Part shown: positions 12,667-19,703 of the stretch, in pieces | Layout of the letters: every line of letters begins with the position of its first letter | Numbering within the stretch: the stretch's first letter is position 1 | Virus record (IMG/VR): IMGVR_UViG_3300031758_000658 | Coordinates: 1 to 21,916 of that record | Length of the DNA stretch: 21,916 nucleotides | Direction: 5' to 3' (one strand) | DNA from: a virus | The notes under the pieces: model-generated | Told to the model about the DNA's origin: nothing | Seen by the model: only the letters and a program-made list of their open reading frames with translations | Database searches by the model: none | Made by a program: the position numbers and the translations under genes

Positions 12667-13809
12667 TTAATATACCCAGAACCCTAGTGGTCTGTATTTT
12701 AGTGTTTTGTTTAAGTTTTCAGCTTCGTTAGCGCCTCGTTCTAATTGTTTTGTTGATGATAATCTTTCTAATCTAGCGTCAAGTCTTTCTAACACTGCTT
12801 TTTTCTCTTCATTACCTTCAGATAATAATGAATCATAATCCATTGTCCTTTCTGCGCCTTCAACACCTACAATACCACCAAATTTACCTCTAACTCTACC
12901 TAGTGTTCTTTTACCTTCAGCAATAAACAATTGACGTACTAGTGTTTTTGTTGGTTCATTAAAGTCTGCATAATCTAATTTAGATAGTGGAACTTGGTTA
13001 GGCATTTTGATAATGTCTGGATTATCTTTTCTACATTGGTCAACGTTATCTGGATTTGTGTCATAATAGAAATACCATACTTGACAACCAGTTAAATTAA
13101 TTGCACTACCAACACCACCAATACCTTGTCCAAAAGATAATTTAGAACCTGGAGTGCTCATCAAGTGTAATAGTTTTGTACCGTCTGGTCCAGCTGTTAT
13201 TTTATGAACCAATTCACTTCTTACGATACGATTTTTTAAGTTCATATCAGCAGCAGTTAATAAAATATCAAATGCTGGTGCAATATAATAACCAGAACGA
13301 GCAAAACCAGGTCCGCCAGTACCAACACCACCACCTATTTGTGAAAATCCACCACCAAATCCATAGTCAATACCACCATAGTTAGCTAATAACGCTTGGC
13401 TAGTTGCTGGAGGTGTAATCCAAAGTACTTCATTTATTTCACGACCAGCTGGTATTTGATATACTTGTCTTCCAGATTCAAGAGTCACAAAATCTTTTTT
13501 AAGTTCCCATGGGCCTCTAGTTTGTAAACCAACTTGTTTTGAATACGCGTAAGTGTATTGTGTCATGAAATCAAAATTTCTAACACTCAACGCAAACGCC
13601 ATATCCAATGTATCTAGATTTTGACCAATCAATGATTGCCATTGATGCTCAATTAACCATTCTTGAACGTATTGAGCATAATCTTCAATACAAATTTCAA
13701 GAAGAGTACATAATTGTTCATCTGTTAATTCAATTTGACGAGTTGGTGCACCTAATGAATGACGCAACTGTCTGAATAATTTTTCTTTATCGTCTAAACT
13801 AACTCCCAT
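12667..13809 (-). CDS. Neck/head-completion-type virion protein (gp13-like, tentative)
   Basis: 380 residues. The N-terminal helical part (FRQLRHSLGAPTRQIELTDEQ, then IEDYAQYVQEWLIE) resembles the opening of T4-like neck (gp13-type) proteins, which join the head to the tail after DNA packaging. A VLWITPPATSQ strand leads into a Gly-rich stretch (about residues 143-172, with GFGGGFSQIGGGVG) that looks like a flexible or surface loop. The C-terminal half has strands with YFYYDTNP, a LVRQLFIAEGKRTLGRVRGKFGG segment and a charged helical tail ending in GFWVY. It is on the strand opposite to the polymerase and shares its terminator. A near-match late box (TATAAGTA) lies 12 nt upstream. Structural role likely; the gp13 label is inference. 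Confidence 0.6.
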   Translation of the reverse strand: MGVSLDDKEKLFRQLRHSLGAPTRQIELTDEQLCTLLEICIEDYAQYVQEWLIEHQWQSLIGQNLDTLDMAFALSVRNFDFMTQYTYAYSKQVGLQTRGPWELKKDFVTLESGRQVYQIPAGREINEVLWITPPATSQALLANYGGIDYGFGGGFSQIGGGVGTGGPGFARSGYYIAPAFDILLTAADMNLKNRIVRSELVHKITAGPDGTKLLHLMSTPGSKLSFGQGIGGVGSAINLTGCQVWYFYYDTNPDNVDQCRKDNPDIIKMPNQVPLSKLDYADFNEPTKTLVRQLFIAEGKRTLGRVRGKFGGIVGVEGAERTMDYDSLLSEGNEEKKAVLERLDARLERLSSTKQLERGANEAENLNKTLKYRPLGFWVY

Positions 13810-13821
13810 AATTTATTTATT

Positions 13822-13829
13822 TACTTATA
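13822..13829 (-). promoter_or_regulatory. Late-promoter-like box, variant TATAAGTA
   Basis: One mismatch to TATAAATA on the minus strand, 12 nt before the neck-protein ATG. An overlapping perfect TATAAATA on the plus strand (13826-13833) could feed the endonuclease gene at 13942 through a ~100-nt leader. Confidence 0.35.
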
Positions 13830-13923
13830 AATATGAGAATAAACACAATTATGCTAAAAATTTCTTTGTTAATTCGTAACTTAATCGCTACCTAACTCGT
13901 ATTTTATAAAAATAATAGATATT

Positions 13924-13931
13924 TATATTAA
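13924..13931 (+). promoter_or_regulatory. Weak late-promoter-like box TATATTAA
   Basis: Two mismatches to TATAAATA, but inside a TATTTATATTAA context and 10 nt before the endonuclease ATG, the common spacing in this window. Confidence 0.25.
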
Positions 13932-13941
13932 AATAAAAATA

Positions 13942-15027
13942 ATGGATAAATTAAAATTTATAAATAAGGCTATATTAATACATAATAATAAGTATGATTA
14001 TTCGTTAGTGGATTATAAAAGAATTGACTCAAAAGTTAAAATAATATGTAATATTCATGGTGAATTTGAACAGACACCACATCATCATATTTATAGAAAA
14101 CAAGGGTGTAATAAATGTGGTTATATTAATATTAGTAAAAACACCAGAAAAAATAAAAACGTTTTTGTTTCTGAAGCTAAATTAATACATGGTGATAAAT
14201 ATGATTATTCATTAGTTGACTATGTTAACGCAAAAACCAAAGTTAAAATAATATGTAAAACTCATGGTGTGTTTGAGCAAACACCAACAAATCACCTAAA
14301 TGGTCAAACATGTGGTAAATGTAACGGTTTAAATAAAACAACCAATGAGTTTATAAAACAAGCTAAGTTAATACATAACAATAATTATGATTATTCATTA
14401 GTTGATTATTATGATACTAAAACTAAAGTTAAAATTATATGTAATAGTCATGGTATGTTTGAACAAACACCAAACCAACATTTAACATTAAAACAAGGTT
14501 GTCCAAAATGTGTTGGTAAGAATAAAACAACTAATGAATTTATTAATGAGGCTAAATTAAAACACGGTGATAAATATAATTACACTAAAACAATATATAA
14601 AAAATCTAAAATTAAAATAGATATAATATGTCCAAACCATGGTTTATTTAAACAAACACCAAATATGCATTTAAAGGGTCAAGGTTGTCCTATTTGTAAA
14701 GAATCAAAAGGTGAAAAAACTATTCGTGAATTGTTGATTAAAAATAATATAAATTTTAACCAACAACATACTTTTTTTGATTGTAAAAATATAAATGTTT
14801 TACCGTTTGATTTCTATTTACCAGACTATAATACTTGTATCGAATACGATGGGATACAACATTTTAAACCAGTTAATAGATTTGGTGCTGAAAAAGGTTT
14901 TTTATTGACTAAACAAAACGATTCAATAAAAAATAATTACTGTTTAGTCAATAAAATAAACTTAATAAGAATACCTTATTTTGAAGATATTACATTTCAT
15001 TTAAAAACTTTATTACCAGTAAACTAG
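13942..15027 (+). CDS. Homing endonuclease with Vsr/EDxHD-like nuclease domain and four zinc-finger-like repeats
   Basis: 361 residues. Four repeats of ~60 residues (about 1-60, 68-126, 127-187, 190-248) each have the form AxLIHxxKYDYSLVDY...KVKIIC...HGxFEQTPxxHL...GCxKC, with paired Cys/His likely to bind zinc and DNA. The C-terminal ~105 residues hold a Vsr-like nuclease: FDFYLPDY (D290), IEYDGIQHF (E301, D303, H307) and an INLIRIPYF strand. This is the layout of EDxHD homing endonucleases such as I-Bth0305I, here free-standing. The last 38 nt overlap, tail to tail, the 3' end of the glutaredoxin gene. Such genes spread by cutting uninvaded genomes. No duplicated host-gene end is visible beside this one, unlike the other two endonucleases here. 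Confidence 0.8.
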   Translation: MDKLKFINKAILIHNNKYDYSLVDYKRIDSKVKIICNIHGEFEQTPHHHIYRKQGCNKCGYINISKNTRKNKNVFVSEAKLIHGDKYDYSLVDYVNAKTKVKIICKTHGVFEQTPTNHLNGQTCGKCNGLNKTTNEFIKQAKLIHNNNYDYSLVDYYDTKTKVKIICNSHGMFEQTPNQHLTLKQGCPKCVGKNKTTNEFINEAKLKHGDKYNYTKTIYKKSKIKIDIICPNHGLFKQTPNMHLKGQGCPICKESKGEKTIRELLIKNNINFNQQHTFFDCKNINVLPFDFYLPDYNTCIEYDGIQHFKPVNRFGAEKGFLLTKQNDSIKNNYCLVNKINLIRIPYFEDITFHLKTLLPVN

Positions 15028-15250
15028 CTTCTTCGATACTTTTAAACGAAACGTTTGGTACCAATAATTGGTTACCAACCTTTATGATAGGAACTTCATC
15101 AGCTTTTGAAACTTCCCTAACTTTTTCAAACTCTTCAGTGTTTTCATCTAGTTCAATATCGACATCTCTAAATTCGACACCTTCGTTTGTTAAAATTTCT
15201 TTTAATTCTGTGCAATAAGGGCACCCTTTAAAACCATAAATTGTTACCAT
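14990..15250 (-). CDS. Glutaredoxin
   Basis: 86 residues with a thioredoxin fold start (MVTIYGFKGCPYC). C10 and C13 form the classic CPYC dithiol site. A cis-Pro loop (EVPIIKVGN) and a C-terminal helix follow. It reduces disulfides using glutathione or a thioredoxin-like donor. In T4-like phages a glutaredoxin feeds electrons to the phage ribonucleotide reductase, which is the likely role here, although no reductase gene is in view. The GG usual after the cis-Pro loop is replaced by NQLL/PN. It starts 5 nt after the stop of the displaced helicase 3' end, so glutaredoxin was probably the next gene of the helicase operon before the HNH cassette came between. Confidence 0.9.
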   Translation of the reverse strand: MVTIYGFKGCPYCTELKEILTNEGVEFRDVDIELDENTEEFEKVREVSKADEVPIIKVGNQLLVPNVSFKSIEEASLLVIKFLNEM

Positions 15251-15255
15251 AATAA

Positions 15256-15462
15256 TTAATCTATTAATTGTTCTGCTAATAAAGCAGTTATTTCATCCTC
15301 TGTTATTGTTTTTTCACCCATAATGGTTGAAATTATATCTTTTTTGTTTCTTAACATTTCCCACATTCTAGTTGAAATGCTATTTTCAAATAATTGATAG
15401 TAAACGTTAACGTCATTATTTTGACCTATACGATACGCACGGTCTTCAGCTTGCTCATTGTT
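15256..15462 (-). pseudogene. Displaced 3' end of the SNF2 helicase gene
   Basis: 68 codons plus a stop, homologous to residues 545-615 of the intact helicase upstream on the same strand. From NNEQAEDRAYRIGQ the first 26 residues are identical in both copies and 39 of the first 49 match. The nucleotide differences in those 26 codons (about 15% of bases) are all synonymous. Upstream of 15463 the similarity stops abruptly. The frame stays open to a GTG at 15504 (FLFKNIYHY) but has no ATG, so it is probably not a gene of its own. It lacks all helicase motifs except VI. Its end is 5 nt from glutaredoxin, so this looks like the original gene end. Confidence 0.8.
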
Positions 15463-15533
15463 ATAATGATAAATATTTTTAAAAAGAAAGTAAATATTAT
15501 TCACTTTTTTAATAATATTAATATATTTATTAA

Positions 15534-15581
15534 TGTGGGTACAATGTTACCACAAATAATAGTTTAATTAAATTAATTAAA
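15534..15581. promoter_or_regulatory. Two inverted repeats before the RHH gene (candidate operator)
   Basis: An imperfect repeat, TGTGG (15534-15538) with CCACA (15550-15554), has extra inner pairs. A perfect 9-1-9 repeat, TTTAATTAA (15563-15571) and TTAATTAAA (15573-15581), runs up to the ATG. RHH proteins often bind such sites in their own promoter. The second repeat is pure A/T and could be chance. Confidence 0.35.
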
Positions 15582-15989
15582 ATGAAAGAAACGGAAATAA
15601 AAATTAGAATAAATTCTGAACTTAAACGTAAGTTTAAAAATAAATGCAAAATTGAATCTTTATCAATGAGTGATAAAATAGTTAATTTTATAAATGATGA
15701 TATTAATTGTATAGAAGATGGTGTTTATTTAGCACAAGAAAAATCAATTAGAATATTATTAACTAAAATGGTATTAAATAAAATTTTAAATAATGGATTA
15801 TTCGAATTTACTGACACACTTAAAAAAGTTTTAGAAGATGCATTAAAAGAGAATTTAGGTTTTGAAACCATAGTGTCAGATATATTATTTAATAAAGAAA
15901 ATAATATGACTTATGGTTATGTTCAATTTTACTTAGAAGATTCAACACCATATAATATTGATTTCACAGTTATTCCAAATGCAAAGTAA
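15582..15989 (+). CDS. Ribbon-helix-helix DNA-binding protein, cassette passenger
   Basis: 135 residues. Residues 1-42 fit an Arc/MetJ-type ribbon-helix-helix: beta strand TEIKIRIN, helix SELKRKFKNKCKIES, then LSMSDKIVNFIND. The remaining ~90 residues (TKMVLNKILNNGLF..., then ...YGYVQFYLEDSTPYNIDF) are not recognised and might sense a ligand or bind a partner. Its stop overlaps the HNH start by 11 nt, so the two are co-translated. Inverted repeats before the start suggest self-repression. Likely job, inferred: to limit endonuclease expression. An unrelated passenger gene is the alternative. Confidence 0.6.
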   Translation: MKETEIKIRINSELKRKFKNKCKIESLSMSDKIVNFINDDINCIEDGVYLAQEKSIRILLTKMVLNKILNNGLFEFTDTLKKVLEDALKENLGFETIVSDILFNKENNMTYGYVQFYLEDSTPYNIDFTVIPNAK

Positions 15990-16488
15990 AATATGTACTA
16001 AATGTAATATTGAGAAATCAATTAATGAATTTCACGTTAATAAATTAGGTAAAGATGGTTATCATTGTCAATGTAAAGAATGTAAAAATAATTATAAAAA
16101 AGAATATAATCAAAAAAACCAAGATAAAAGACGAGAATATGGATTAAAAAATAAACACGTTGGTTTATGGAGAAGCGTTCTTAAAATGTCATTATGGCGA
16201 TTAAACACCAAAAAAGAAGGTTATACTATAGACCTTCTTGGTTACTCTGCCTTAGAATTTAAAGAACATATTGAACAGTTATTCACAGAAGGTATGTGTT
16301 GGGATAACCATGGCGAGTGGCATGTTGACCATATTAGACCAGTAAGTAGTTTTGATACAACTGAGCACCCTAGTGTTGTCAATGCATTGGAAAATTTAAG
16401 ACCTATGTGGAGTACTACTAGGGTGATTAATGGTGTTTATTATGAAGGTAATCTAAATAGAAATAAAATTAAACGTAAAAAGTTATAA
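15979..16488 (+). CDS. HNH homing endonuclease
   Basis: 169 residues from the ATG at 15979. An upstream in-frame ATG at 15958 adds seven residues unlike the family, and the family's usual opening CTKCxxEKxxxEF sits right after 15979. A zinc knuckle is formed by C6/C9 and C32/C35. The nuclease core is WHVDHIRPVSSF (H115, D117, H118) with ENLRPMW (N139), a complete HNH metal site. The last Leu codon of this gene is the stop codon of the converging helicase gene (shared TTATAA, 16483-16488). It sits exactly between the intact and displaced helicase 3' ends, which points to the helicase motif VI codons as its ancestral cleavage region. Confidence 0.85.
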   Translation: MQSKICTKCNIEKSINEFHVNKLGKDGYHCQCKECKNNYKKEYNQKNQDKRREYGLKNKHVGLWRSVLKMSLWRLNTKKEGYTIDLLGYSALEFKEHIEQLFTEGMCWDNHGEWHVDHIRPVSSFDTTEHPSVVNALENLRPMWSTTRVINGVYYEGNLNRNKIKRKKL

Positions 16489-18330
16489 TTCACCATCTAA
16501 TATTTTTTGAATTAACAAATCAGTTTCATCTTCTTTTGATGCATTATCAACACCTAATATTGTGTTAATTACTTGTTTTTTTTGTTTTAAAGTTTCCCAC
16601 ATCCTAACTGAAATCGTATCTTCAAATAATTGATAATATACATTAACGTCATTATTTTGTCCAATACGATACGCTCTATCTTCTGCTTGTTCATTATTAC
16701 CAGTAACCCAATCAAACGAATTAAATATAACAACAGTTGCTTCAGTCAACGTAATACCAACACCAGCACTTTTTATGTTTCCAACAAAAACTTTTACTTT
16801 TTCATTGTTTTGGAATTGGTCAACTGAATGTTGTTTTTTAGCTGATGACATTGGACCGTTATGTTTAACAGCTGCCTTACCAAAATGATTCGCAATTATT
16901 TCTAATTCATCTGAAAATGATGTAAACACAATTACTTTACGTCCCATTTCAATAGCGTTCTCAACCATTTCAATTGTGTATGGAATCGCTTCGTTAGCAA
17001 TGAATTGTCTTAATAATATAAGTTCAACCAAATCTTTTTGTGATTCGTTTGTTCTTTTGCCTTGTTTCTTTTTCAATTCAACATATTCATCCCATAGTTT
17101 ATCATACATTCTCCAACCGTTTTTATCTAGTTGATGATACATTGGAGTAACTATTTTGTCTGGCATGTCTATAGCGTCAGTCTTTAAACGTCTTAATAAT
17201 ATGTTTTTTGTTTTGTTTGCTAATTCTTCTAAATTACTAGCACCATCTGTTATCCATATTTGCTTTCTTTGGCCGTTTTTAAGCGTTCTAAAGAACTTTT
17301 TACCTTCACAGTATCTTACTGCATAGTGTTTCCAATTATCTGCAATAGGTGACTTAATTATCTTTAAAAGATTAAAAAAGTCCATAGGTCTATTTGCGAC
17401 TGGAGTACCAGTAAGAAGCCATACTTTTGGTATATTATGCTTGACGCATAAATCAACCATGATTTTACCTCTGATACTTTCATTATTTTTTAAATTATGT
17501 GCTTCATCGACAATACATAAATCAAATTTTTCATTAACCATATCTTTAATCAATATAGGTTCTTTTTCGCCTTCTTTTAGTTTTTTTGTAGGTGGTAAAG
17601 TATGAAAGTTTTTAAGTATGTCAAAATTTATTATTGTAAATTTATTTGAATCCCATTTCTTCCCATCAACAATTGTTGTTTCATCGCAAAATACATTTAT
17701 TTCACGCTGCCAGTTTATTTTTGTTGATGATGTGGTAACTATAAGGATTTTTTCAGCACCACTTTCTAGTGCAGCAATAATTGATTGCATGGATTTACCT
17801 AAACCCATGTCGTCTGCTAATATACAACCATTTCTAGATAATAAAAATTTAATACCATCTTCTTGGTGTTTGTATAATGTTTTACCGTATTTACTAAGTA
17901 TTTCATTATATTTTGATAAATCTACATTTACATCAATTGGTTCAAAATAAGGGTCATCAGTTACTTGTGTTTTTGGTAACCAATACATTTTTGATTCCTT
18001 TTGGTTTTGCTTTAATTTACCATAAATATGAAAACTTTTATCTGTATCTGCTAATATAAATTCAATAAGGACTTTTTCTGGTATAAATGACAAATCATCT
18101 AACTTTTTAAGTTCCTCACCTAAATAAGGTGTAATACCTATTACTCTATTAATATATTGTGGTTCTTTATCGTGATTATCTACTATATATCTAGATTGAT
18201 TCTCTGTTAATTGAATCTTTTTGTTTTTAATGAATTCATTTTTAAGCTTTTTAATATACGGATTTATACCATCATAGTCTTCCAATAAAGACAACGCTGA
18301 ATGGCTTTTTAAATCATTAATATCAATCAC
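16483..18330 (-). CDS. SNF2-family (SF2) helicase/translocase
   Basis: 615 residues. After a ~150-residue N-terminal region come motif Q (YKHQEDGIKFLL), motif I (ADDMGLGKSM, K179), Ia (ILIVTTSSTKINWQ), II (IVDEAHNLKN, D275-H278), III (WLLTGTPVANRP), IV (KVIVFTSFSDE), V (IKSAGVGITLTEA) and VI (QAEDRAYRIGQ, from Q548). All motifs needed for an ATP-driven dsDNA translocase are present. In phages such proteins act in replication, recombination or transcription of DNA. The last 71 residues exist twice: the copy here belongs to the HNH cassette, and the older copy lies at 15256-15462. The 3' end beyond residue ~593 differs clearly between copies (ASKEDETDLL here, TEDEITALLA there). No late box is seen upstream, so early or middle expression is likely. 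Confidence 0.92.
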   Translation of the reverse strand: MIDINDLKSHSALSLLEDYDGINPYIKKLKNEFIKNKKIQLTENQSRYIVDNHDKEPQYINRVIGITPYLGEELKKLDDLSFIPEKVLIEFILADTDKSFHIYGKLKQNQKESKMYWLPKTQVTDDPYFEPIDVNVDLSKYNEILSKYGKTLYKHQEDGIKFLLSRNGCILADDMGLGKSMQSIIAALESGAEKILIVTTSSTKINWQREINVFCDETTIVDGKKWDSNKFTIINFDILKNFHTLPPTKKLKEGEKEPILIKDMVNEKFDLCIVDEAHNLKNNESIRGKIMVDLCVKHNIPKVWLLTGTPVANRPMDFFNLLKIIKSPIADNWKHYAVRYCEGKKFFRTLKNGQRKQIWITDGASNLEELANKTKNILLRRLKTDAIDMPDKIVTPMYHQLDKNGWRMYDKLWDEYVELKKKQGKRTNESQKDLVELILLRQFIANEAIPYTIEMVENAIEMGRKVIVFTSFSDELEIIANHFGKAAVKHNGPMSSAKKQHSVDQFQNNEKVKVFVGNIKSAGVGITLTEATVVIFNSFDWVTGNNEQAEDRAYRIGQNNDVNVYYQLFEDTISVRMWETLKQKKQVINTILGVDNASKEDETDLLIQKILDGEL

Positions 18331-18354
18331 TTTTATTTGTCAATTTAAACAATG

Positions 18355-18376
18355 TTATTATATTTAAATATAATAA
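18355..18376. promoter_or_regulatory. Perfect 22-bp A/T palindrome between divergent genes
   Basis: The arm TTATTATATTT (18355-18365) is followed directly by its reverse complement (18366-18376). It lies 25 bp upstream of the helicase ATG and 65 bp before the plus-strand leader ORF. Position and symmetry fit a dimer-binding operator or a cruciform. Base content alone makes shorter ones common, but 11 matching pairs would be rare by chance. Confidence 0.4.
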
Positions 18377-18427
18377 AATTTTAAATAAAAATCAATAGTT
18401 GTGATTATTATTTATTAGATTAATATT

Positions 18428-18435
18428 TATAATAA
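18428..18435 (+). promoter_or_regulatory. Late-promoter-like box TATAATAA, original promoter of the virion gene
   Basis: Two mismatches to TATAAATA within TATTTATAATAA, 5 nt before the displaced start codon at 18441. It presumably drove the virion gene before invasion and now drives leader, GIY-YIG gene and virion genes together. Confidence 0.35.
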
Positions 18436-18440
18436 AAGAT

Positions 18441-18488
18441 ATGGAAAATAACAAAATAACACCGATTACACGTATTAACAAAATATGA
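18441..18488 (+). pseudogene. Displaced 5' end of the virion gene (15-codon leader ORF)
   Basis: It reads MENNKITPITRINKI and stops. The first 14 residues match the intact gene at 19179 (MKNNKIIPITRINK) at 12 positions, with a base change in almost every codon, mostly synonymous. After codon 14 the similarity ends. The stop TGA overlaps the GIY-YIG start codon as ATGA, so the remnant probably works as a leader that couples translation to the endonuclease. Confidence 0.75.
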
Positions 18489-19220
18489 TTATATATAAAA
18501 CAACAAATTTAATTAACAATAAATTTTATATTGGTCAAGATTCTAAGAATAACCCAGAATATTTAGGTTCTGGGACTATTATTAAAAAGGCTATCAATAA
18601 ATATGGTAAAGAAAATTTTAAAAAAGAAATATTAGATATTTGTTTAGATAAAGAAGAATTAGATATAAAAGAGATATATTGGATAAAAGAACTAAAAAGC
18701 ATTGAGAATGGTTATAACATTTCATCTGGTGGTAATGGGTGTTTAGGTTGTAAACAAAGTGATGAAACAAAAGAAAAAAGAAGATTAAAAAACATTGGGG
18801 ATAAAAATCCAATGTATGGTAAAACTTTATCTAAAAAAACCTTAATAAAAAGGAGTGAAAAAGTAAAAAATGAAAAAACTTTTAGTGGTGAAAATAACCC
18901 AAATTTTAAATATAAAATAGAAAAAAAAGAATTATATAATTTATTTATAATAAAAAATTTAAAAATAGATGAAATTTCTAAAATATACGGTTGTCATAGA
19001 ACCGTTATTTCTGATAATCTTAGGAAACACAATATTAAAAAAGTACTTTCAAATAAATACAATTTAAAAATAGAAGAAATACAAAAATATTTAGTTAATG
19101 GCTTGAATTTAGTAGAAATAGGTGTAATTTATGGATGTTCAAATAAAATAATAAGTAAGTTTATTAAAAAATATAAAAATGAAAAATAATAAGATTATAC
19201 CTATAACTAGGATTAATAAA
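18483..19220 (+). mobile_element. GIY-YIG homing cassette carrying a replacement 5' end for a virion gene
   Basis: It is bounded by the two copies of the virion gene's first 14 codons (18441-18482 and 19179-19220). It consists of the endonuclease ORF plus the new 14-codon start. Deleting it joins codon 14 of the remnant to codon 15 (TGG, Trp) of the intact gene in frame. No terminal repeats or intron structure are seen. Confidence 0.65.
18485..19189 (+). CDS. GIY-YIG homing endonuclease with NUMOD-like and tandem HTH DNA-binding parts
   Basis: 234 residues. The nuclease domain (1-~90) has IIYKTTNLINNKFYIGQ (the GIY and YIG strands), LGSGTIIKKAINKYGKENF, the E-containing helix DKEELDIKEIYWI and GYNISSGGNG. 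Residues about 92-130 (KQSDETKEKRRLKN, GDKNPMYGKTLS) look like NUMOD3-type DNA-binding motifs. The C-terminus has two similar helix-turn-helix units (IDEISKIYGCHRTVISDNL and LVEIGVIYGCSNKIISKFI). This is the SegA-E / I-TevI-type layout of free-standing phage endonucleases. The ATG is translationally coupled to the leader ORF (ATGA), and the end overlaps the virion gene start by 11 nt. No start upstream is possible because the GIY strand begins at residue 2. Confidence 0.88.
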   Translation: MIIYKTTNLINNKFYIGQDSKNNPEYLGSGTIIKKAINKYGKENFKKEILDICLDKEELDIKEIYWIKELKSIENGYNISSGGNGCLGCKQSDETKEKRRLKNIGDKNPMYGKTLSKKTLIKRSEKVKNEKTFSGENNPNFKYKIEKKELYNLFIIKNLKIDEISKIYGCHRTVISDNLRKHNIKKVLSNKYNLKIEEIQKYLVNGLNLVEIGVIYGCSNKIISKFIKKYKNEK

Positions 19221-19697
19221 TGGTTTAGTGAAGAAGATTTCAGTTTAGAAATCGATTTAGGTAGAGAGGCTATAGAAGGTGATGGTAATTTTACTGTAAT
19301 TTTATATAGCGTTGATAGACAATTATCAGCGGCTGATAATGTATATGGTGAAGCACCAATCAACGGAATTAAATTTTTACCACCAGTCGAACTTAAAGTG
19401 TCACCTACGATGGCTACACCAGAAAACAAAACATATAATCAAGGTATGTTAAGGTATATAATAGATGGACAATTTACATTTAGAATATATGATAGCCAAT
19501 TAAGTGAGTTAGATGTTAATATTTATTATGGTGATTATATTGGTTATCCAGTAACTGAAACAGAAATAAGATATTTTAGTGTTGTTAATGACGGTATTAA
19601 AAACTATGATAATCAACACACAATAATGGGATACAAAGGTGCATATAGAACAATTGTTTGTGCATCTGTTGATTCTAATGAATTTCACGGAATATAA
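19179..19697 (+). CDS. Conserved virion protein (neck/tail-completion module), target of the GIY-YIG cassette
   Basis: 172 residues, no membrane segment, beta-rich (NFTVILYSVDRQLSAADNVYG, FTFRIYDSQL, YGDYIGY) with a C-terminal MGYKGAYRTIVCASVD. The start at 19179 is chosen because residues 1-14 match the displaced copy at 18441. It lies 6 nt before the gp15-like gene and is part of the same late block. I do not recognise a specific family. A role in the T4 gp14/gp15 region is suggested only by neighbours. Its first 14 codons were apparently supplied by the endonuclease cassette, and its translation now depends on termination of the endonuclease 11 nt inside it. Confidence 0.7.
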   Translation: MKNNKIIPITRINKWFSEEDFSLEIDLGREAIEGDGNFTVILYSVDRQLSAADNVYGEAPINGIKFLPPVELKVSPTMATPENKTYNQGMLRYIIDGQFTFRIYDSQLSELDVNIYYGDYIGYPVTETEIRYFSVVNDGIKNYDNQHTIMGYKGAYRTIVCASVDSNEFHGI

Positions 19698-19703
19698 TAA
19701 ATT

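Follow-up and report, generated by a model that had tools for sequence, protein, structure and literature searches.

The locus described here is best explained, with a probability of roughly 0.8, as a homing cassette that needs neither splicing nor an intron and that carries a built-in rescue end: a GIY-YIG endonuclease gene together with a replacement start for the gene that it would invade. This reading draws on comparison of the locus with its relatives: the arrangement of the parts; the absence of the cassette from close relatives; similar cassettes in divergent phages; boundaries around codons 7–14; decay products; and a second, fossil stub.

The window, meaning the whole stretch of viral DNA that was analysed (21.9 kb), is AT-rich and includes a head-tail adaptor gene. 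Relatives of the invaded gene, which encodes a protein of 172 amino acids, are borne on contigs that reach up to 368 kb. The window therefore is probably part of a large tailed phage.

Two starts for one gene

A short stub ORF, the nuclease ORF, and the 172-aa gene follow one another on the same strand (Table 1). The stub and the start of the gene share 12 of 14 residues and 31 of 42 nucleotides. In a six-frame search of the window, the runner-up to the gene start matched the stub peptide at only 6 of 14 residues, and chance is thereby excluded. An earlier note on this DNA had proposed that the 15-codon ORF copies the start of the intact gene, and had named a common, unrelated motif as the finding that would speak against it; the same search excludes such a motif, and the orthologues described below settle the origin of the copy. 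The nuclease ORF occupies the space from stub to gene, also as proposed: the stub stop codon overlaps the nuclease start by four nucleotides (ATGA, 18485–18488), and the nuclease 3' end overlaps the start of the 172-aa gene by 11 nt.

Table 1. Positions in the window of the parts of the three cassettes and of the genes that they adjoin
Feature	Positions	Strand	Remark
Displaced native 3' end of the glutaredoxin gene (ELTKKFLA, then stop)	13849..13875	-	Same DNA as L003
Third cassette: phrog_559-type nuclease (2.2e-94) in the glutaredoxin gene	13942..15027	+	
New glutaredoxin C-terminus, SLLVIKFLNEM, from the third cassette	14990..15025	-	Native L002/L003 end is AELTKKFLA
Displaced native 3' end of the helicase gene	15256..15463	-	Resembles native ends of L002, L003, L006, and L007
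Endonuclease-VII-like HNH ORF of the second cassette	15958..16488	+	phrog_1035, 2e-24
Second cassette: replacement 3' end of the SNF2-type helicase	16483..16699	-	
Box TATTTATAA of the original gene, now before the stub	18424..18432	+	Putative promoter
Stub ORF, MENNKITPITRINKI and stop (15 codons): displaced native 5' end	18441..18488	+	Codons 1–14 are 18441–18482
PITRINK codons of the stub: presumed target segment	18462..18482	+	Synonymous hot spot in native relatives
Cassette, 738 bp: GIY-YIG ORF and new codons 1–14	18483..19220	+	Absent from L002–L006
GIY-YIG homing endonuclease, 234 aa (GIY-YIG, NUMOD3, C-terminal helix-turn-helix)	18485..19189	+	
Replacement 5' end: new start codon and codons 2–14 (MKNNKIIPITRINK)	19179..19220	+	
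Conserved 172-aa gene in its rebuilt form, with the replacement start	19179..19697	+	

Empty sites and the joint

Five relatives (L002–L006), whose proteins are 82–84% identical to the 172-aa protein of the window, lack the nuclease; in each, the same 5' region runs directly into the intact gene. Each of twelve 30-nt blocks before the ATG of L003 matches the flank of the window stub at 25–30 of 30 positions. Alignments (blastn) between the window and these five relatives stop at 18482 and restart at 19160–19162, that is, 17–19 nt before the new ATG. The stub shares its upstream flank with the five and matches their codons 1–14 at 36 of 42 nt (L002–L005) or 33 of 42 (L006). By comparison, the new start matches L003 at 33 of 42 nt, the native locus L036 at 35, and the stub at 31. 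Together, the flank, the alignment breaks, and the better match of the stub (36/42 versus 33/42) identify the stub as the native start, and the 738-bp cassette as an insertion that supplies a new one. The orthologues thus bear out two expectations of the earlier note: without the endonuclease, their 5' region and first codons resemble the copy at 18441; and the element brings a new gene start, being absent from L002–L006 and carrying a copy that differs from the native stub. These nearest cassette-free relatives are only about 93–94% identical to the window over 300 nt upstream, and 85–86% identical in the gene body.

Where exactly does the cassette end? The stub matches L003 best in codons 1–9, whereas in codons 10–14 the new copy is closer to L003 than the stub is; the true joint in the window therefore may lie near codon 9/10. 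An in-frame joint of codon 14 to codon 15, as previously suggested, stands as one possibility, but the comparison with L003 also allows the more upstream position. In the closest pair (L202 and L219, below), the joint falls within an AACAA that is shared at codons 13/14. Fixing the joint in the window from L003 alone was rejected: the PITRINK codons are too variable among relatives.

The gene and its box

The motif TATTTAT lies within 45 bp of 8 of the 20 gene starts checked on the two strands of the window, where about 0.04 would be expected per start. The 172-aa gene was compared in 82 distinct versions, and 66 of them likewise have the motif no more than 45 bp from the ATG. Given these two counts, TATTTAT is a real signal; it is likely a promoter element of this phage group. 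The earlier note had spoken of a late-type promoter. The signal itself stands, but the T4-like label "late" is not established: the T4 late promoter consensus, TATAAATA, is absent before the stub, and is present before 17 of the 66 native versions.

The 172-aa protein of the window matches nothing in Pfam or PHROGs. When 36 family members were compared with PHROGs, two families were hit, each weakly and by 1 of the 36. A profile of the family, searched against solved structures, gave only a chance-level match (E 0.26) and no solved relative; and no relative was found at E ≤ 0.01 among 50,697 annotated phage records. An AlphaFold model built with 36 relatives (pLDDT 54.7) was too poor for a fold search. 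Conservation, the box, and the neighbouring genes are consistent with a putative virion role. The overlaps between reading frames suggest that translation of the 172-aa gene is routed through the nuclease.

How often is the gene invaded?

Two IMG/VR scans with the 172-aa gene returned 163 and 425 encoding relatives, of which the best 80 of each were kept. These and a scan with the nuclease yielded the 82 distinct versions, the window included. Two of them (L088 and L096) entered through the nuclease scan, so the figures that follow are counts rather than frequencies.

An intact cassette, with stub, nuclease, and new start, is present in 9 of the 82 versions, and two nuclease types are involved. 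Type A is carried by the window (L001), L027, L044, and L083; type B by L033, L078, L200, L202, and L211. Sixteen versions have no TATTTAT within 45 bp of the gene: the nine intact carriers; two decayed ones; two with a third nuclease; one unclear case (L192); and two native versions (L077 and L226). Across carriers the stub varies from 12 to about 22 codons, and the spacers differ also. Stub and nuclease are fused in frame in L027 and L083; in type B, all five cassettes include a separate TATTTAT box upstream of the nuclease. The type B new start begins MSK(S/P)IV and is one residue shorter. Because its residues before PITR differ, this start is, judged by its sequence, foreign and not merely respelled.

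The two decayed examples, L058 (about 828–988) and L061 (about 1123–1280), keep the stub or a fragment of it, along with about 46 and 33 codons, respectively, of the nuclease 3' end; by these remnants they are decayed cassettes. A short ORF without an endonuclease was the other finding named beforehand as counting against the insertion. These two loci alone answer to that description, and each still retains its nuclease codons. The retained nuclease 3' end may hold start signals of the gene.

Type C, in L088 and L096, places a third nuclease directly behind the box, between box and gene, with no visible stub. Pfam finds NUMOD3 (1e-10 or better) and no GIY-YIG domain in these two proteins, which are GIY-YIG-like by eye only; their C-terminal half is 52–53% identical to that of the window nuclease. 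In L192 (3918–3997), the box sits at −80, the 80-bp gap between box and gene holds no long ORF, and the gene has a type-B-like start, MSKPITPITR. This locus possibly has lost a cassette almost completely.

The nuclease

The window nuclease matches NUMOD3 in Pfam (1.3e-6). Its GIY-YIG match (2.8e-4) scores 21.6 bits against a cut-off of 22.6, and HTH_28 (1.8e-4) also falls below its cut-off. The protein belongs to the phrog_314 homing endonucleases (1.4e-33), and a profile of 10 nuclease relatives matches the catalytic domain of I-TevI at 5.7e-5. Residues Y4, Y15, G17, E63, and N78 are invariant in all 10 relatives and align with positions of the I-TevI GIY-YIG core, the five residues of which presumably have catalytic roles. 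The region of I-TevI R27 aligns unclearly. The catalytic domain and DNA-binding motifs argue for membership among the GIY-YIG homing endonucleases, with site-specific cleavage of alleles that lack the nuclease gene as the predicted activity; L219, L003, and L206 would be its natural substrates.

Within each type the nuclease genes look functional, since dN/dS is 0.11–0.32 in 16 of 16 pairs, with dS near or above 1 (saturated) in several type A pairs. Pfam matches for other carriers lie on both sides of the cut-offs: GIY-YIG (0.027) and SegE_GIY-YIG (1.6e-4) in type B L033, both below; SegE_GIY-YIG (0.006) in L146, below; and GIY-YIG (5.7e-5) in L235, above. NUMOD3 is present also in the L033, L088, L096, L146, and L235 nucleases. 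Distant phage relatives are 32–35% identical among the 12 matches listed, one of which is annotated as SegH.

Before and after

The closest pair consists of L202, which has a type B cassette, and L219, which has none. The two agree at 879 of 900 nt upstream, with stub codons 1–13 identical, and at 1397 of 1440 nt downstream, counted from nt 60 of the gene. The new start of L202 matches L219 at 46 of the first 63 columns. None of the five PITRI codons is the same in the two: four differ synonymously, and the fifth replaces I by V. A second pair, at a different gene (L333 and L334, below), has the same layout. In both pairs, flanks that are 96–98% identical enclose a stub of native sequence and a new start that diverges from it.

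The type B nuclease genes of L033, L078, and L202 are 87–92% identical in nucleotides; the accompanying genes are 73–79% identical in codons 53–105, and 70–74% in codons 106–170. Identity rises at the nuclease and drops again inside codons 7–13. The 3' boundary of type B is blurred, because codons 8–13 differ between carriers. A tree of the gene body, its bootstrap still unsettled, groups L202 with the native L219 (100/100), and L211 with the native L206 (100/95). Across the 13 labelled rows, type B requires 4 changes, and well-supported branches force no fewer than 2 of these. When labels were shuffled on the tree, type B was as scattered in 304 of 500 trials, which fits mobility and also chance. 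Presence and absence at one site in close relatives, and nuclease divergence out of step with that of the host, are what a mobile homing element would leave, and the cassette has both.

Moreover, the spacers of L033, L078, and L202 contain an older copy of the segment, KITPIT-INR, beside the stub (21–22 of 30 nt). Letter shuffles did as well in 2, 0, and 9 of 2000 trials, respectively. A fossil stub was looked for in the L200 and L211 spacers, and none was found. A ruined copy of this kind would be expected from an earlier round of homing.

Rewording of the target codons

The PITRINK codons carry 42 synonymous changes in 17 disjoint native pairs, against 21.8 expected from the same amino acids elsewhere in the 172-aa gene, which puts them at the top of 169 gene segments compared. 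A segment 63 codons farther on (about codons 71–77), where no cassette is known, has 41 against 21.6 in these pairs. In a set of 29 pairs this second segment is at the top, with 92 against 51.6, and PITRINK has 91 against 53.5. The hot spot at codons 71–77 perhaps is another nuclease target or an RNA signal.

The excess of synonymous changes at PITRINK is compatible with nuclease escape. Unless its letters changed, the target would be rebuilt along with the gene; a reworded start would plausibly protect the rebuilt gene from being cut. Between stub and copy in the window, the divergence is about equal to that among some native relatives.

A model, and its competitors

How might the cassette spread? 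The GIY-YIG endonuclease would cut an uninvaded gene in the conserved, PITRINK-coding stretch near its 5' end. In a mixed infection, the break would be repaired from a cassette-bearing genome, pasting in the nuclease together with the cassette's version of the first 7–14 codons. The recipient's own first codons would persist downstream of the native 5' signals as a stub with no function; the rest of its gene would be joined in frame to the cassette's start, and so would be whole without splicing. The conserved stretch would be respelled (the first few residues may differ too), which would remove the native target sequence from the rebuilt gene. Stub, nuclease, and gene probably are transcribed together, and the stop/start overlaps suggest translational coupling. 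The model thus predicts that the nuclease cuts at this site, that the cassette homes, that rewording protects the rebuilt gene, and that the three ORFs share a transcript and are translationally coupled.

A free-standing nuclease of the ordinary kind might instead have landed in a gap, with the stub arising from sloppy end joining that duplicated the first codons, followed by drift and with no rescue at all. Phages commonly have such nucleases next to essential genes, according to parts of two published accounts (PMC2988022, PMC10448857), and the stub and copy of the window differ about as much as some relatives do. In L202 and L333, however, the stub equals the cassette-free relative exactly and the copy is foreign, whereas duplication in place would give two native copies. 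Also, the five type B copies share MSK(S/P)IVP across divergent hosts, and among the versions compared only L192 (MSKPITP) comes near. An origin by sloppy joining thus appears very unlikely. Still harder to sustain is a self-splicing intron, or a ribosome bypass like that of T4 gene 60, that joins stub codon 14 to codon 15 and leaves the second start as decoration. The reading frame would indeed join, and homing nucleases often reside in group I introns. Nevertheless, an Rfam search of 13800–19700 at E ≤ 1 gave a single sub-threshold match, which was not to an intron (IS009, 19.2 bits where 117 are needed); the downstream gene is complete with its own start; and stub lengths and spacers vary, with stub and nuclease even fused in two carriers. 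A group I or group II intron was rejected on the same Rfam result, and an intein was rejected because a stop codon follows the stub and the frames are separate.

Two other readings leave most of the homing model in place. The rewording might be passive, reflecting nothing but a diverged donor, and immunity would then come only from the split site. Natural donors carry synonymous differences anyway, and the divergence in the window is ordinary. Against this, an unchanged rebuilt gene would restore the full native target; L202 differs from L219 in every PITRI codon; and in relatives that were never invaded, synonymous changes concentrate in the target codons, though not there alone. Passive rewording, which is compatible with the other steps, seems to us rather unlikely. 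Alternatively, the stub may be in use, as a 15-residue leader peptide or as a translated start that couples to the nuclease, which would add to the homing model rather than replace it. The ATGA overlap in the window and the in-frame fusions in L027 and L083 are in keeping with a working stub; its variable length and ending, and the separate TATTTAT before the nuclease in the five type B cassettes, are not. We regard a functional stub as possible, but on the doubtful side.

Known systems

The nearest likeness is to mobile ORFs of fungal mitochondria, which form gene hybrids in Allomyces atp6 and in Glomus atp6, atp9, cox2, and nad3, as described in sections of one report (PMC3630166). There, as in the window, an endonuclease gene brings a foreign gene end, and the native end is kept as a duplicate; the replacement ends are closer in protein than in DNA, again as here. 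The fungal hybrids described in those sections are mitochondrial, are formed by LAGLIDADG or GIY-YIG ORFs, and exchange the 3' end, which encodes the carboxy terminus, whereas the present case concerns the 5' end and the start codon, in a phage. A nuclease accompanied by a divergent duplicate end, with the native end displaced, is what the window contains, so the likeness is one of working.

Insertions in Tremella mitochondria have N-terminal duplications, and part of that report proposes that they exchange gene fragments (PMC7315562). Six introns were predicted in that system; by the portion of the report concerned, cDNA revealed one real intron, three insertions retained in the host-gene cDNA, and two lying downstream (PMC7315562). 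Like the phage cassette, the Tremella insertions described there carry a partial copy of the host gene; the phage cassette, by contrast, gives no indication of an intron, and its copy is the translational start of the gene.

Among T4-type phages, the Seg and Mob nucleases are intron-free, lie near or in essential genes, co-convert their flanks, and include gene-splitting insertions, in the account of one review section (PMC2988022), for instance mobE in Aeh1 nrdA, and mobA with gene 60. T4 gene 60 is split by a homing nuclease and bypassed by the ribosome, as part of another source relates (PMC5009743). In these accounts the gene is in two reassembling pieces or is bypassed; here, it would have a replacement end and remain in one piece. 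The section of the T4 review on evolution and genome impact (PMC2988022) describes no replacement ends. Barth and colleagues, in the part consulted, report nucleases near or interrupting essential genes (PMC10448857); replacement-end cassettes are not described in the corresponding parts of that paper or of a study of Skunavirus HNH nucleases (PMC12724721). The matches listed from the open-access literature include no phage case of such a cassette. In synthetic HomeR drives, a homing element in an essential gene is combined with a re-coded rescue of the target (PMC7968924). Those are engineered Cas9 drives in flies, to which the phage cassette would be a natural counterpart.

The locus thus is best read as a homing-nuclease gene hybrid in a phage and at a 5' end. 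The arrangement recurs at its site and, going by several further examples, is apparently general in this phage group. Essential genes are the targets of homing nucleases; intron-free phage nucleases, as portrayed in the sections cited above, sit beside a gene or leave it in pieces. Bringing a reworded end would remove that cost, and would explain how such elements can occupy the coding sequence of essential genes when nothing is spliced. If the model is true, the cassette would amount to a natural form of the home-and-rescue principle behind synthetic gene drives. Selfish elements would then exchange the first or last residues of phage proteins between lineages; gene callers would place starts wrongly at such sites and list tiny ORFs that are not genes; and synonymous changes in conserved phage genes could be escape mutations.

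Other gene ends

All three nucleases in the window swap a gene end: one 5' end and two 3' ends. The earlier note had called the present cassette the mirror image of an HNH case, and rightly: in the HNH cassette it is the helicase gene that receives a new 3' end, and the third cassette also swaps a 3' end. Segments 16495–16699 and 15259–15463 both align by blastn to a single stretch of L003 (3055–3259), and so are duplicates of about 205 bp. Between the two helicase ends lies a small Arc-like ORF (15582–15989). Two copies of the helicase C-terminal peptide are held by 12 of the 16 loci with this HNH nuclease, a count in which the L291 copy is partial, at a contig end, and several loci are near-identical phages. 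As for the single-copy loci, L280 and L284 begin too near a contig end for a second copy to be visible, and L285 and L289 truly have one copy. In the glutaredoxin gene, L002–L007 lack 13876–15025 by blastn, and the strand opposite the 3' end of the nuclease ORF itself encodes the new gene end. This phrog_559-type nuclease has its own TATTTAT box.

A further 5'-end swap is found in L333 (the contig of L146), where an antisense NUMOD3 nuclease at 1497–2551, with a weak SegE-type GIY-YIG match, replaces the 5' end of a neck-like gene. Its phage relatives comprise 60 records, and several of the ten listed bear the annotation neck protein or head-tail adaptor. L334 lacks the insert (site 2335), and its flanks are 97.2% identical over 1549 nt and 96.5% over 989 nt. 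The L333 stub matches L334 at 51 of 51 nt, and the new start at 46 of 51. Among the best 80 loci of that scan, only L333 has the start motif in two copies. In L235 (361–1300), the gene for a T4-type terminase large subunit (Terminase_6N, 4.4e-16) has a GIY-YIG nuclease at its 5' end. A probable stub reads MDQEIVRRTVEKAPEIEYEP, and the rebuilt gene starts with TTG. Searching the collection for a native relative returned L235 itself only. By position and relatives, this probably is the same 5'-end swap. In L019, a displaced 3' end of the neck-like gene lies beside a phrog_559-type nuclease.

A scan for flank duplications covered 174 ORF/flank entries, with repeats, since several queries reach the same ORF. 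Its null consisted of 174 random flank pairings (top scores 68, 51, 50, 46, and 46), which include related loci and so may contain true matches. Scores for L019 (113), L146 (85), and L203/L044 (74) exceed every null pairing; those for the window locus (62), L083 (54), and L027 (53) are beaten by one. L235 (50), L232 (49), L231 (46), L233/L234 (45), and L202 (43) score within the null range, and are assigned by position and relatives. Matches in L288 (51), and in L311 and L280 (47), look like low-complexity chance matches and were set aside.

It is somewhat better than an even guess that large phages generally host splice-free cassettes with reworded ends, using GIY-YIG, HNH, and phrog_559-type nucleases at both 5' and 3' ends, swapping termini and start signals, and driving an arms race in synonymous codons. 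The 5'-end cases would be the 172-aa gene, the neck-like gene, and probably the terminase; the 3'-end cases, the helicase, glutaredoxin, and neck-like genes.

One minor observation concerns the helicase ORF on the minus strand of L044 (1–2193) and L061 (1–1038). By eye, an insert that looks intein-like (GDKVIGSDGKPYNVIGV) seems to follow directly on its DDMGLGK motif.
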